The notes beneath the pieces are model-generated. The model made no database searches. It was not told the DNA's origin and worked only from the letters and a program-made list of their open reading frames with translations. From a virus, in the IMG/VR virus record IMGVR_UViG_3300032676_001184, positions 1-21,492 of that record: DNA of 21,492 nucleotides, one strand, 5' to 3'. Shown piece by piece: positions 1 to 16,219 of this stretch (its first letter is position 1; each line of letters starts with the position of its first letter). A program made the translations under genes and the position numbers.

Positions 1-1386
1 TCTGTTTTGCACCTCTAGTGCCCTTGCTGCTTCAGCTTTAGCTTGTCTTTCCTTTTCTAGATCTTCGGCAGACATTTTGCTTCTTCTACGCTCTGCATCA
101 ATAGCTTGTTGAGTTTGCTGCTGCCAAGAATTTATTACTTTTCCAGCTTCAGGAAATGATACCATAAGATTTCGTACTTTAGCAGGATCCATAGCACCAA
201 TAGCGTCACGCATTTTTTTAGCGCCTTCAGGGTCGCCTCGACTGGCTGATATCATAGCCTGTTGCAAACCTGGTACCAGATTTACTATGGATGCCATTTC
301 TCCCGGAAGTGTGCCTAAACTTCCGCCAGCTAGACCAACTTGTGCTACCATACTAGCCATCTCGTTACTGCCCTCGCCAAACTCAGCAGACAAACCTGCC
401 ATTGTTTTGGCAAATTTTTCTTGTTGGTCTGGCGGAAACATACGTTGCAACACATTAACGTCTGGCATTTTCATAATTTCAGTTGTAGTTTTCGCAATCT
501 CCGCGCGGTTTCTTCCTGTTTCTACGGATAGGTCATTAAATGACTGTACAAGATTTTTTCCAGTACGTACGAGTTGATCTTCGCTCATGCTAGCAAGCCT
601 GCCGGAACTGCGCAAGGTTTCCAAGCTATCAAAAAATGCCTCACTTGCTTCTTGTTGTGTCATCATTAGGTCTGCACCTAAATGTGTCTGTTCTAAAAAC
701 ATACCATTAACTTTGGCCAACGTATCTACACCTAATGTAGCACCAACAGCACCATATTTTGACAGCATTTTAGCAAACGTTTCCACGCTTACACCAGCAG
801 CGCTAGCAGCGTCAGTTAATCCTCGCATACCGCCTTGGAAGATCATTCCAGACGCGTACAGTTCCTCAGTTGATTTGGTTACTTTAATTATTTTTTCGTA
901 TAAAACTGCCGCTGCTCCTGCAGTTAGTCCAAATGATTTAATGGCAAATTGCAAAGGCTTTGATAATTTTCCAAATCCATCAAAATAGTCCTGTAAGTGT
1001 TGCGTACTAGCTGCCAGTCCTCTAAATATTCCTTCAGCCGAAGTTGCATTAGCTAGGTCTCTAATGCTTAAATTAAATGCTCTACCTAAACCTCTTAATT
1101 CGGCGTTGTTTTTTCCAGTTTCGTCAGTTAAATCTGCCAAACCGTTGGTAGTCCTTTGCTGGCCAGCCTTTAAGGTATCATCTACAGTCTGCAGTCCATT
1201 AGCTGATTTTTCAATTGCTTCTAAAAGGTTTTTATCATCTTTCGCTAAAATTTTGCCAATTTCTTTAAGTTGGCCAACGGTCACAATACCATTATTAAGA
1301 AGTTTTTTCAATGTGTCTTCAGTGGCCCAGCCTGCATCTAGTGCAACTTGTTTGTCAATAGCAGTAATTTTGACGTTATCAACCAT
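1..1386 (-). CDS. Probable tail tape measure protein, N-terminal 462 residues (runs off the left edge)
   Basis: This reading frame is open without a stop from the ATG at 1386 down to base 1, giving 462 residues, and the gene continues outside the window. The protein begins MVDNVKITAIDKQ and is largely helical. It has a small hydrophobic, alanine- and glycine-rich stretch (around IKSFGLTAGAAAVLYEK) and a charged, Ala/Glu/Lys/Gln-rich helix at the visible end (RRRSKMSAEDLEKERQ, then AKAEAARALE). This composition is typical of phage tape measure proteins, which fix tail length and pass through the tail tube. The call rests on composition, expected large size and position: the gene diverges from a tail-assembly-chaperone-like pair, the usual partners of a tape measure. 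A TATAAATA late promoter lies upstream on the same strand. Another large tail protein is possible. Confidence 0.65.
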   Translation of the reverse strand, partial: MVDNVKITAIDKQVALDAGWATEDTLKKLLNNGIVTVGQLKEIGKILAKDDKNLLEAIEKSANGLQTVDDTLKAGQQRTTNGLADLTDETGKNNAELRGLGRAFNLSIRDLANATSAEGIFRGLAASTQHLQDYFDGFGKLSKPLQFAIKSFGLTAGAAAVLYEKIIKVTKSTEELYASGMIFQGGMRGLTDAASAAGVSVETFAKMLSKYGAVGATLGVDTLAKVNGMFLEQTHLGADLMMTQQEASEAFFDSLETLRSSGRLASMSEDQLVRTGKNLVQSFNDLSVETGRNRAEIAKTTTEIMKMPDVNVLQRMFPPDQQEKFAKTMAGLSAEFGEGSNEMASMVAQVGLAGGSLGTLPGEMASIVNLVPGLQQAMISASRGDPEGAKKMRDAIGAMDPAKVRNLMVSFPEAGKVINSWQQQTQQAIDAERRRSKMSAEDLEKERQAKAEAARALEVQNR

Positions 1387-1453: not shown

Positions 1454-1463
1454 CTATTTATAG
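1454..1463 (-). promoter_or_regulatory. T4-type late promoter (CTATAAATAG) for the tape measure gene
   Basis: The minus strand reads CTATAAATAG here, containing the full T4 late consensus TATAAATA (1462-1455). It faces left towards the tape measure ATG at 1386, giving a leader of roughly 60 bases. It lies only about 10 bases from the rightward motif at 1437-1444, so the two promoters face through each other and their initial transcripts overlap. Confidence 0.65.
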
Positions 1464-1471
1464 AGGTTAAA

Positions 1472-2344
1472 ATGACGTCAAATCCGTTACAACAGTTTTT
1501 CAGACAACCAAGCGTTTACTTGCGCCTACCTACTAAGGGCAAATGGTATACTAGTGAAATAGTTGAGACTACCGCAGATAACGAACTAGCAGTTTACCCG
1601 CTGTCTGCTATGAACGACATCATGTTGAACACGCCGGATGCCATGCTCAATGGACAAGCATTAGAAAACGTGATTAAGGATTGTGCACCTGGAATAAAAG
1701 ACGTTAAAAGATTTCTGTTGCCAGATGTTGAAGCACTTTTTTTAGCTATTAAGTCAGCTAGTAACGGTGGAAAAATAGACATTGACCGTAAATGTCCAAA
1801 ATGTGAGGCAGATAACACATACGAACTTAATTGTAGCTATCTGCTAGATTCATCTACATTTTTAAACGAAGACGATTTAACCACTCAATTTAGTGACGAA
1901 CTTGTTATACACGTACGTCCTTACGATTTTGAAATGCGTCAACTATTTCTAAAGCGTGAATTTGAAGAAGAAAAAACTTTTCGTAACATCAATGCGCAAG
2001 GTGATGCTATAGATGATATTACGAAAGCAAAATTAATGGCAGAAAGTATAGAGCGTCTGTCTAAGCTTACCTTTAGTTTGGTTAGTCGTAGCATTGAAAA
2101 AATTGTAATTTTAAAACAAAATGTTACAGTAACTGATCGTGAACATATAAACGAATGGCTTGTAGGTATTAGTAAGGCACAAGCTGAAATAGTAATGGAA
2201 GCGGTTGACAAAATTAATAAAATTGGCATACCAAAAACACTTACTGCACAGTGTACATCATGTGGACACAGTTGGGAGGACGCATTGTCGTTTGATCCAG
2301 CAAGTTTTTTCGGCAAACGCTCGCTACAGGGGATGGCGAGCTGA
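1472..2344 (+). CDS. gp26: gp26-like baseplate hub / tail assembly chaperone protein, with zinc-ribbon cysteines
   Basis: This 290-residue protein resembles the T4 gp26 family (T4_baseplate), which acts in hub and tail assembly. Two CxxC pairs, C108/C111 (CPKC) and C261/C264 (CTSC), could bind one zinc ion. The end shows the SFDPASFF motif that I associate with marine T4-like gp26 homologues. The ATG at 1472 follows AGAGG at a good distance and lies behind a late promoter. In T4, gene 26 is linked to gene 51, and a small gp51-like ORF follows here. The FF codons (residues 279-280) form a UUUUUUC slippery heptamer with a downstream hairpin, so some ribosomes probably continue in the -1 frame to make a 356-residue fusion (280 + 76 residues). 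The 290-residue product would be the unshifted form. Confidence 0.72.
   Translation: MTSNPLQQFFRQPSVYLRLPTKGKWYTSEIVETTADNELAVYPLSAMNDIMLNTPDAMLNGQALENVIKDCAPGIKDVKRFLLPDVEALFLAIKSASNGGKIDIDRKCPKCEADNTYELNCSYLLDSSTFLNEDDLTTQFSDELVIHVRPYDFEMRQLFLKREFEEEKTFRNINAQGDAIDDITKAKLMAESIERLSKLTFSLVSRSIEKIVILKQNVTVTDREHINEWLVGISKAQAEIVMEAVDKINKIGIPKTLTAQCTSCGHSWEDALSFDPASFFGKRSLQGMAS
2305..2341 (+). other. Programmed -1 ribosomal frameshift signal (slippery T TTT TTC plus hairpin)
   Basis: In the gp26-like frame the codons read agT TTT TTC, so the heptamer at 2305-2311 is a canonical X XXY YYZ slippery site. A 7-base spacer (2312-2318) follows, then a hairpin. The arms are 2319-2326 (GCTCGCTA) and 2334-2341 (TGGCGAGC): six perfect pairs, mostly G-C, plus one G-U and one A-T. 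The loop is 7 bases (2327-2333). Heptamer, spacer length and GC-rich stem in AT-rich DNA match the standard bacterial and phage -1 frameshift layout. After slipping, the next codon is CGG at 2311 and the frame stays open to the stop at 2539-2541. Confidence 0.8.
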
Positions 2345-2352
2345 TAGCTAAA

Positions 2353-2541
2353 ATGCTTGAAATAATGGAAAAAAATAGAAAGGCTATTCAACAAGAATTA
2401 GGAATGCTTGCCTTTTACATGCAAGGTGGCTTAGGCTTTAACGAGGCACATATGCTCAGTTTAGAACAACGTCAAATTCTGAGCAAAGTGATTCAAAGGC
2501 ACTACGAAGCTATGGATCCAAAAAAGAAAAGTATGCTGTAA
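2353..2541 (+). CDS. gp51-like small tail/hub assembly protein, probably also the C-terminal part of a frameshift fusion
   Basis: This is a 62-residue ORF from the ATG at 2353, with a Met codon again at 2365. It is rich in helix-forming residues, with a MQGGLGFNEAHML segment followed by SLEQRQIL. Its position directly after the gp26-like gene matches T4 gene 51 (hub assembly) or the distal half of a G/GT-type chaperone. The frame is open upstream to 2296, and the residues just before the Met (GDGELIAK) look like continuous protein. There is no convincing ribosome binding site for the ATG at 2353. This fits synthesis mainly by -1 frameshifting from the upstream gene, although reinitiation after its stop 9 bases earlier is an alternative. 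The stop lies 1 base from the converging next gene. Confidence 0.6.
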   Translation: MLEIMEKNRKAIQQELGMLAFYMQGGLGFNEAHMLSLEQRQILSKVIQRHYEAMDPKKKSML

Positions 2542-2542
2542 A

Positions 2543-3361
2543 TTATCTACGTTTACGCCTTTCTACATAATCTGTTATTCCAAGCAAATACCCAGCCGAA
2601 GCATCATCTCTAAAATCGAGCTGCCATCTGTTTTGATTCTCGCTATATAGATGAGGAGCTCGGAGAATTAATAATCTAAACATTTGACTTGTCAGATTAT
2701 AATGAGGAACCGAGATAGGCATCTTAGAATAAGGAATTTGCACATAACTGGTATGTTCTTCTTCATTATACGAAATTTTTACCAAACTATACGGAATCTG
2801 TAAATGACGTTTTGTATCAACTGATTGCTCTTGTATCACTTGTATAGGTGCATGTAGTGATTCCATTTTTAAAGCTTGAATAAACGCATTGCATTGGCCA
2901 ATTAAATGTCGCAAGACCTCACTTGCCATAGCACGCCTAACAGTAGCATGTATACGAGCAGGTGCAGCAGCAATTTCAATTATAGAAATATGCGCAGGGC
3001 TAATTCGTTTCTGTCCTGTGCTATCATATACCAATTGATGCAAGTAATGCAAATGTTGAGGCCATTGTTCTAACGGATATTCAATTAAATTTCTAGGATT
3101 AACAGCTCTTTCTGCACATTCATTCCACAGCTTTCGTTCGTTGTCTTTCATAGCCGAAAGCTCAGCAGGATATGCTCTTAAACGCGGTGTTAACCCTTTT
3201 ATCAAAGCATTGAAATATTCAAGTTCCTGTCGTACAAAATACGACAAATCATTTGAAAGTTGAGCTGGAAGCTCAATTTCAAAATTCTTCATGTATGACG
3301 CGCGATTACGCATAGTTGGCGTAACAGATGAAGTGCTGCGCTTTGTATTTCCTTTTTTCAT
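2543..3361 (-). CDS. Phage protein of unknown function, 272 residues
   Basis: I do not recognise this protein with confidence. The N-terminal 20 residues are basic and Ser/Thr-rich (MKKGNTKRSTSS), then a helical region starts at about residue 25 (MKNFEIELPAQLSNDL). The middle has an alanine-rich helix (IIEIAAAPARIHATVRRAM) and the C-terminal third contains two similar short motifs, QIPYSLVKI and QIPYSKMPI, before a basic end (VERRKRR). No signal peptide, membrane segment or catalytic motif is evident. The gene is long, clean and normal in composition, so it is very probably real. It converges on the gp51-like gene with a 1-base gap and diverges from the nuclease gene at 3448. The N-terminus is not certain: the predicted -10 box lies very close to this ATG, and Met-17 or Met-24 are alternatives. 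Confidence 0.7.
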   Translation of the reverse strand: MKKGNTKRSTSSVTPTMRNRASYMKNFEIELPAQLSNDLSYFVRQELEYFNALIKGLTPRLRAYPAELSAMKDNERKLWNECAERAVNPRNLIEYPLEQWPQHLHYLHQLVYDSTGQKRISPAHISIIEIAAAPARIHATVRRAMASEVLRHLIGQCNAFIQALKMESLHAPIQVIQEQSVDTKRHLQIPYSLVKISYNEEEHTSYVQIPYSKMPISVPHYNLTSQMFRLLILRAPHLYSENQNRWQLDFRDDASAGYLLGITDYVERRKRR

Positions 3362-3367
3362 ATAGTT

Positions 3368-3395
3368 AGTTTAATTTATGTAGAAAAAAAGTCAA
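3368..3395 (-). promoter_or_regulatory. Possible sigma70-type promoter for the 272-residue gene
   Basis: On the minus strand TTGACT (3395-3390) is followed after 16 bases by TAAACT (3373-3368). The -35 box matches 5 of 6 consensus bases and the -10 box 4 of 6. The -10 box ends 6 bases before the ATG at 3361, so a transcript from here would be nearly leaderless. An imperfect late-type motif, CATAAATT (3380-3373), overlaps it. The call is tentative. Confidence 0.35.
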
Positions 3396-3447
3396 CAACC
3401 TACATCAAATAGCTTAAATAGATAACATTGAACTTATTGGAGATATA

Positions 3448-15328: not shown

Positions 15329-16219
15329 TTATGAAATTCTAAAGTTGATGTATTCAACAATAGCTTTAGCCATATCGTGTTGACAGTAGGTTTCAAAGCC
15401 GTAAAAACCAGGCGCACTATTTGCTTCACAAACTTTGAAACCGTCTTTGTCAAATAATAAATCAACACCTGCAATATCTAGATTCAGTATTCTTGCCGTT
15501 TCGCCTGCAATAAATTCAATCTCAGGTGTAATTGCAAATTGTGCCCCAGACCCACCGTTTGAGATATTTGCTCTAAAATCATTTTGAGCTGTGCGTTGCA
15601 TTGCTCCTATTACTTTTCCGCCGATTACCCAAACTCTTAAATCAGTTCCAACTTTGTATCCAATGTATTCTTGAATAATCAAGCTTTTATTAGTAGACAG
15701 GCTGTTGATAAGCTCCATGAGCTCCGCAAAACTTGATTTATTTTTACACAGATAAACACCTTTACCATGGCTGCTTGTTATCACTTTAACTACACAAGGC
15801 CAACCGATTTCTCGGTCAACAAGCTCTTCGTTAATAGGCCAACGCACCAACATGGTTTTTGGTATAGGAAGTCCGTGCTTAGCAAGTAATTGGCTAGTTT
15901 CTAGTTTGTCTTTTACTCTATCTATACTTGCACTCGAGCTAATAACTGGAACCCCTAGATTTTCTAGTTGGCGCATAGCAGCCAAACAAAAATAATTAGA
16001 ACCAGAGCCTGTTCTAGCTAGAACCGCATCTGGTAATTCTGGTTTTTTACCATTTAGCCAAACGTTAGTATTGTCTTTCTTAGTAACAATTAAATCAAGA
16101 GAATTTGGATGAATTAACTTGGCATCAATGTTATATGCAGAAAATGTTTCTAAGAGCCGATGATTTTCATATTCTTCATTTGTTTTTCTACTTAAAATCC
16201 AAATATGTGCCATCCACAC
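15329..16219 (-). CDS. RimK-like ATP-grasp ligase
   Basis: This 296-residue ATP-grasp enzyme resembles RimK and related alpha-L-glutamate ligases, which join glutamate (or another amino acid) to a protein or small peptide using ATP. The visible motifs are: N-terminal domain with AHIWILSR and VLARTGSGSNYF; ATP-binding strand CVVKVITSSHGKGVYL; adenine loop LIIQEYIG; DLRVWVIGGKVIGAMQR; glycine-rich NGGSGAQF; and metal site AGVDLLF ... CEANSAPGF with E265 and N267. Length fits the family (about 300). Known bacterial RimK adds glutamates to ribosomal protein S6; the phage substrate is unknown. AAGAAAAG lies six bases before the ATG at 16219, although Met-3 is also possible. It is the last gene of a four-gene leftward island that includes an acyl carrier protein. 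Confidence 0.85.
   Translation of the reverse strand: MWMAHIWILSRKTNEEYENHRLLETFSAYNIDAKLIHPNSLDLIVTKKDNTNVWLNGKKPELPDAVLARTGSGSNYFCLAAMRQLENLGVPVISSSASIDRVKDKLETSQLLAKHGLPIPKTMLVRWPINEELVDREIGWPCVVKVITSSHGKGVYLCKNKSSFAELMELINSLSTNKSLIIQEYIGYKVGTDLRVWVIGGKVIGAMQRTAQNDFRANISNGGSGAQFAITPEIEFIAGETARILNLDIAGVDLLFDKDGFKVCEANSAPGFYGFETYCQHDMAKAIVEYINFRIS

Follow-up and report, generated by a model that had tools for sequence, protein, structure and literature searches.

We find it very probable, from comparison of sequences, that -1 frameshifting at the heptamer T TTT TTC (positions 2305-2311) of an AT-rich, 21.5 kb viral contig yields a minor long form of a tail assembly chaperone, as in lambda G/GT. 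This contig, analysed over its whole length of 21,492 nucleotides, is referred to below as the window. Its chaperone gene appears to be a well-supported further case of a frameshift already known from T4-like phages; our analysis adds jumbo phages, in which it has gone unannotated. The initial annotation of the window had proposed such a -1 frameshift, with a short and a long product of the lambda type, and the comparative evidence strongly supports that proposal.

Phage lambda reportedly produces its tail assembly chaperones G and GT through a -1 programmed frameshift (Levin 1993; Xu 2004). By the mechanism that we propose, most ribosomes would read the window gene to its zero-frame stop (2342-2344) and release a 290-residue short form, whereas a minority, with two tRNA-Phe molecules paired to the TTT TTC of the heptamer, would slip one base back, pair anew with TTT TTT and read on in the -1 frame as far as 2541, giving a 356-residue long form with an additional C-terminal domain. 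If lambda gpG/gpGT is a guide, the tape measure protein might be coated by many copies of the short form and few of the long form, whose tail might recruit tail tube subunits. The likeness to lambda lies in a short product with a minor -1 extension, a location near the tape measure gene (a candidate, and divergent, in the window) and a chaperone role, presumed in the window. The two systems differ in heptamer and efficiency, lambda not sharing the T TTT TTC of the window, and the likeness implies no sequence relation.

The short ORF is a member of PF12322, T4_baseplate (74.5 bits against a curated cut-off of 24.5; E=1.3e-20), and also matches phrog_150 (E=3e-20). Its AF2 model (pLDDT 85.7; only 38 when run without an alignment) is ordered up to the slip site, with residues 283-290 disordered, and the conserved fold, as modelled, ends at F279-F280, exactly where the ribosome would slip. 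The best BFVD match of the model was a T4-like baseplate hub assembly protein (TM 0.92), and only T4 hub-type models were found among the BFVD matches; a search of the PDB by fold and sequence returned no match at E<=0.001 and no solved tail assembly chaperone. We assign the gene to the T4_baseplate-family tail assembly chaperones, as the putative short form, with a presumed function in assembly. The divergently transcribed neighbour, which runs off the contig edge, matches phrog_14121 weakly (E=0.09), while its counterparts in PBECO4 and RaK2 match the same family at E<1e-175 and the RaK2 record describes its copy as similar to a tape measure protein. Elsewhere in the tail module, the window carries a gene for a RimK-like ATP-grasp ligase (15329-16219, minus strand; PF08443, E=1.8e-44).

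Table 1 Features of the chaperone locus in the window.
Feature	Position	Strand	Basis
Divergent neighbour, 462 aa, off contig edge; candidate tape measure protein	1..1386	-	Position and sequence character
Shine-Dalgarno AGAGGT of the gp26-like gene	1462..1467	+	Anti-SD pairing, -6.5 kcal/mol
gp26-like short product, 290 aa	1472..2344	+	PF12322, phrog_150, AF2 model, BFVD match
Slippery heptamer T TTT TTC, in phase; codons 279 (TTT) and 280 (TTC)	2305..2311	+	Sequence, conservation
-1 extension, 76 codons after F280 (2311-2538); frame open 2296-2541	2311..2541	+	pN/pS, hhalign
7-nt spacer between slip site and hairpin	2312..2318	+	Sequence
Candidate stimulatory hairpin, contig-specific; 8-bp arms 2319-2326/2334-2341	2319..2341	+	RNAfold
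First -1 frame ATG, poorly supplied with a ribosome binding site; a free protein begun here would have 62 aa	2353..2355	+	Anti-SD pairing, -2.7 kcal/mol

Across the slip site the zero frame reads ..GCA AGT TTT TTC GGC.., and joining this frame up to F280, which ends at 2311, to the 76 codons that follow in the -1 frame predicts the 356-residue product, with its junction peptide in the FFRQTLATGDGELIAK region. These features agree with the initial annotation in the sequence, phase and coordinates of the heptamer, in the 7-base spacer, in the open -1 frame (2296-2541) and in the sizes of both products. The downstream ATG at 2353 had also been described as poorly supplied with a ribosome binding site, as borne out by its Shine-Dalgarno match of -2.7 kcal/mol compared with -6.5 for the gp26-like ATG at 1472. 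In-phase homopolymer heptamers are not rare in so AT-rich a window (7 in 6235 codon positions), so that a single copy of T TTT TTC proves little.

Alignment of homologues, from which conservation of the heptamer had been expected, gave far stronger evidence. T TTT TTN was found in phase in 125 of the 128 homologues outside the Ackermannviridae, which argues for a programmed site. It is kept in 18/19 homologues of the window lineage (40-100% identity; one at 24% lacks it), in 79/80 environmental cyanophage-type loci and in all 15 annotated jumbo phages (Cassandra, Phosso, PBECO4, Atu_ph07, RaK2, Vibrio 2.275, XaC1, Munch, BF, CBB, Hallingskeid, GAP32, XbC2, XacN1 and RAS14), as well as in P-SSM7, S-RSM4, phiAS5, V07, Cr30, P10VF and Bhz51. 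The variants seen are T TTT followed by TTC, TTT or TTG. Two profile alignments (A1 and A2) proved unsuitable for scanning loci because of their excessive diversity. A PF12322-like ORF with an in-phase T TTT TTC and a -1 frame open past its stop is also present in a 595 kb uncultured phage (LR756511; locus L040, 2156-3420).

From the zero-frame stop to the first ATG, the -1 frame alone shows the pattern of change expected of a protein. Among 13 members of the lineage this stretch has a pN/pS of 0.46 in the -1 frame, with stops at 0/104 codons, against 1.06 (12 stops) and 1.76 (10 stops) in the other two frames; for 51 cyanophage-type sequences the corresponding values are 0.28 against 1.21 and 1.76. 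These data bear on the possibility that the downstream ORF is an independent small gene of 62 aa that starts at ATG 2353 and is expressed either through an initiation event of its own or through reinitiation following termination at the gp26-like stop. It is so annotated in PBECO4, BF, CBB, P10VF, Cr30 and other public records, and in several phages stop and start overlap at a TAATG or TGATG junction, but the -1 frame is under protein-level selection already upstream of the ATG. Moreover, the first Met varies in position and is absent near the junction in Cassandra and some others, and its median Shine-Dalgarno energy (-1.0) is that of random sequence, compared with -3.95 for gp26-like starts. 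Taken together, selection, the variable or missing Met and the random-level Shine-Dalgarno match do not fit a free downstream gene and fit read-through from the slip site; a separate gene would also leave the conservation of the heptamer unexplained, and we regard it as very improbable. As judged from these sequences, the extension begins at the heptamer and has neither a start codon nor a ribosome binding site that recurs consistently, and what had been called a gp51-like ORF is probably the C-terminal domain of the long product, not a gene. None of the public records that we examined (L024-L038, L039, L041, L044 and L047) annotates a joined frameshift CDS; the extension is recorded as a hypothetical protein, as a 'baseplate hub assembly catalyst', or is missing.

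The T run could alternatively reflect nothing but a Phe-Phe motif in AT-rich codon usage, with no recoding. Relatives do conserve Phe-Phe in the zero frame, and of the two Phe codons TTT is used more often (59-69%). Against this, all 39 heptamer-bearing representatives (<70% identity) code the motif as nnT TTT TTN, the T before FF included, although TTT makes up just 62% of the other Phe codons and a final T is found in 67% of comparable codons. Were the lineages independent, such uniform coding would have a chance of about 1e-15; this overstates the case because they share ancestry, and, as the representatives were picked from heptamer-bearing loci, the statistic is to be taken together with the survey counts. 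The selection on the -1 frame downstream also speaks against this reading, as does the loss of the run in T4 and RB43, which own separate full-length gp51, and we find it scarcely credible. Transcriptional slippage, in which RNA polymerase slipping on the T run would produce the long form, has in its favour that T runs can cause it and that one distant homologue (L021) has a run of seven Ts and a homologous extension in the +1/-2 frame. It nevertheless appears very improbable: the run has just six Ts, held in phase as T TTT TTC (with TTG and TTT variants), which fits slipping of tandem tRNA-Phe, and both the Shine-Dalgarno-like element upstream in T4-like members and the folded RNA downstream in the window lineage are of the kind that stimulate ribosomes. 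These three alternatives (a separate gene at ATG 2353, a chance T run and transcriptional slippage) were each rejected for the reasons given above.

With regard to stimulators of ribosomal frameshifting, a stem 3' of the slip site is common in -1 frameshifting, yet not required. The 8-bp stem originally described is present in the window, and positions 2312-2380 fold with -14.6 kcal/mol (RNAfold; z -2.5, 3/200 shuffles equally good), but the hairpin is specific to this contig: across relatives 57% of cells are paired, and it is absent as such even in a relative of 80% identity, so that its stimulatory role is unproven. Conservation of the stem, which the alignment had been expected to reveal, was thus not observed; an alternative 5-bp CGCTC/GGGCG stem showed no covariation, and for the more distant subgroup no shared structure emerged from RNAalifold. 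What is kept in the lineage is the strength of folding, while the structures differ, and no conserved stem was found. The 55 nt 3' of the slip site have a mean z of -2.46, compared with -0.27 for gene controls, and jumbo phages reach -1.5; this folding may assist slipping. Cyanophage/Straboviridae-type members carry instead an SD-like element (GGAGGG, GAGGG or AGAGG) about 9-10 nt upstream of the slip site, with a median of -6.1 kcal/mol against -1.05 for gene controls (p=1.5e-7), which was absent in the window and jumbo members compared. Frameshifting in E. coli dnaX is stimulated by a similar upstream SD. The element overlaps a conserved EGL/RGL protein motif, and its role is therefore not separable from sequence.

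Some relatives depart from this pattern. Ackermannviridae (L042 and L137-L151, for example Salmonella phage GG32) keep a homologous -1 extension without the canonical heptamer, and their junction, GAGATTTTCATTTAATTTTTGAAATTGATTTA, hardly varies among homologues that share 70-100% identity, which suggests that these relatives use another recoding site or mechanism. In a 236 kb cyanophage-type contig (L133, 1201-2094) the short ORF and the extension lie in one continuous frame, with one T fewer, as the result of either a natural fusion or a sequencing indel. The distant homologue with seven Ts (L021, 4001-4979) has its similar extension in the +1/-2 frame, which may be due to slipping by -2 or +1, to slippage during transcription or to an error in sequencing. 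Vibrio phage K474 (L046, about 3210-3405) has no canonical heptamer, and the stop of its short ORF overlaps an ATG (TAATG), so that reinitiation is possible there.

The extension also appears to connect the window to T4. Compared directly with T4 gp51, the window fusion gives only a weak hhalign match (9%); the link runs via the cyanophage and Straboviridae fusions. Jumbo and window extensions align with each other (hhalign, 99%, E=4e-18), and profile comparisons join the window fusion to the T4-like fusions (98%, E=3e-13), the T4-like extensions to the last part of T4 gp51 (97%, E=2e-11) and the T4-like fusions, end to end, to the whole of T4 gp51 (99.5%, E=3e-22). By this route the window extension would correspond to the tail at the C terminus of T4 gp51. 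The term gp51-like holds for that tail and not for gp51 as a whole, which is a gp26 paralogue plus the tail: T4 gp26 and gp51 both match PF12322, and the tail is present in gp51. T4 gp26 ends near the slip position without a T run (GAG TTC TTT GAG), and the run is likewise missing from RB43, which, as T4, has a separate full-length gp51; the two genes are adjacent but separate in RB43, and on opposite strands in T4, Aeromonas phage 31 and KARL-1. Because of this arrangement T4 itself cannot join genes 26 and 51 by frameshifting, and since gp51 is a gp26 paralogue with a tail, the pair matches short and long chaperones made from two genes. On sequence grounds, T4 gp26 resembles a short form and T4 gp51 a long form that has become hard-wired, and T4 seems to have replaced the slip site by two separate genes, in contrast to the one gene with a -1 slip of the window lineage and jumbo phages.

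The initial annotation knew of no established link of this kind for T4 gp26/gp51, but the idea is not new. According to passages in PMC10885494 and PMC12846349, the tail assembly chaperones of T4-like phages were identified by Vladimirov, Gautam and Davidson 2022 (Virology 566:9-15), who are credited in the former with the view of T4 gp26/gp51 as short form and hard-wired long form, and in the latter with poly-T slip sequences in the short-form genes of T4-like phages; for some phages, a long gene that is separate and fused is reported as well. As described there, T4-like gp26/gp51 share with the window the PF12322 family, short and long forms and the poly-T slip site reported for short-form genes; T4 and RB43 differ in having two separate genes and no slip site. 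In Vandenendeviridae and Andersonviridae, a myovirus chaperone gene conserves a -1 site of the poly-T type (GTTTTT), and the ORF that follows has been mis-annotated as a gene (PMC12846349), a likeness in the poly-T -1 site and the misread ORF between different phage families, for which we claim no homology. Our literature searches for chaperone frameshifting of this type in jumbo phages found no report.

As a tentative generalisation, which we hold at somewhat short of even confidence, single-gene -1 frameshifting may be the usual state of PF12322 chaperones, leaving aside Ackermannviridae and the two-gene phages of T4 type. Two stimulators may have evolved round one invariant slip site: in cyanophage/Straboviridae-type members the SD-like element that lies 9-10 nt upstream, and in the window lineage, together with some jumbo phages, the folding of the downstream RNA. 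On this view T4 gp51 may be the long form hard-wired. A 2016 review described G-T frameshifting as conserved 'except T4'; as predicted from sequence, the tail-length chaperone switch thought missing from T4 would be present in T4-related jumbo phages and cyanophages. One slip site with two ways to stimulate slipping would offer a natural comparison, and T4 gp26 and gp51, whose function has long been uncertain, become testable as short and long chaperones.
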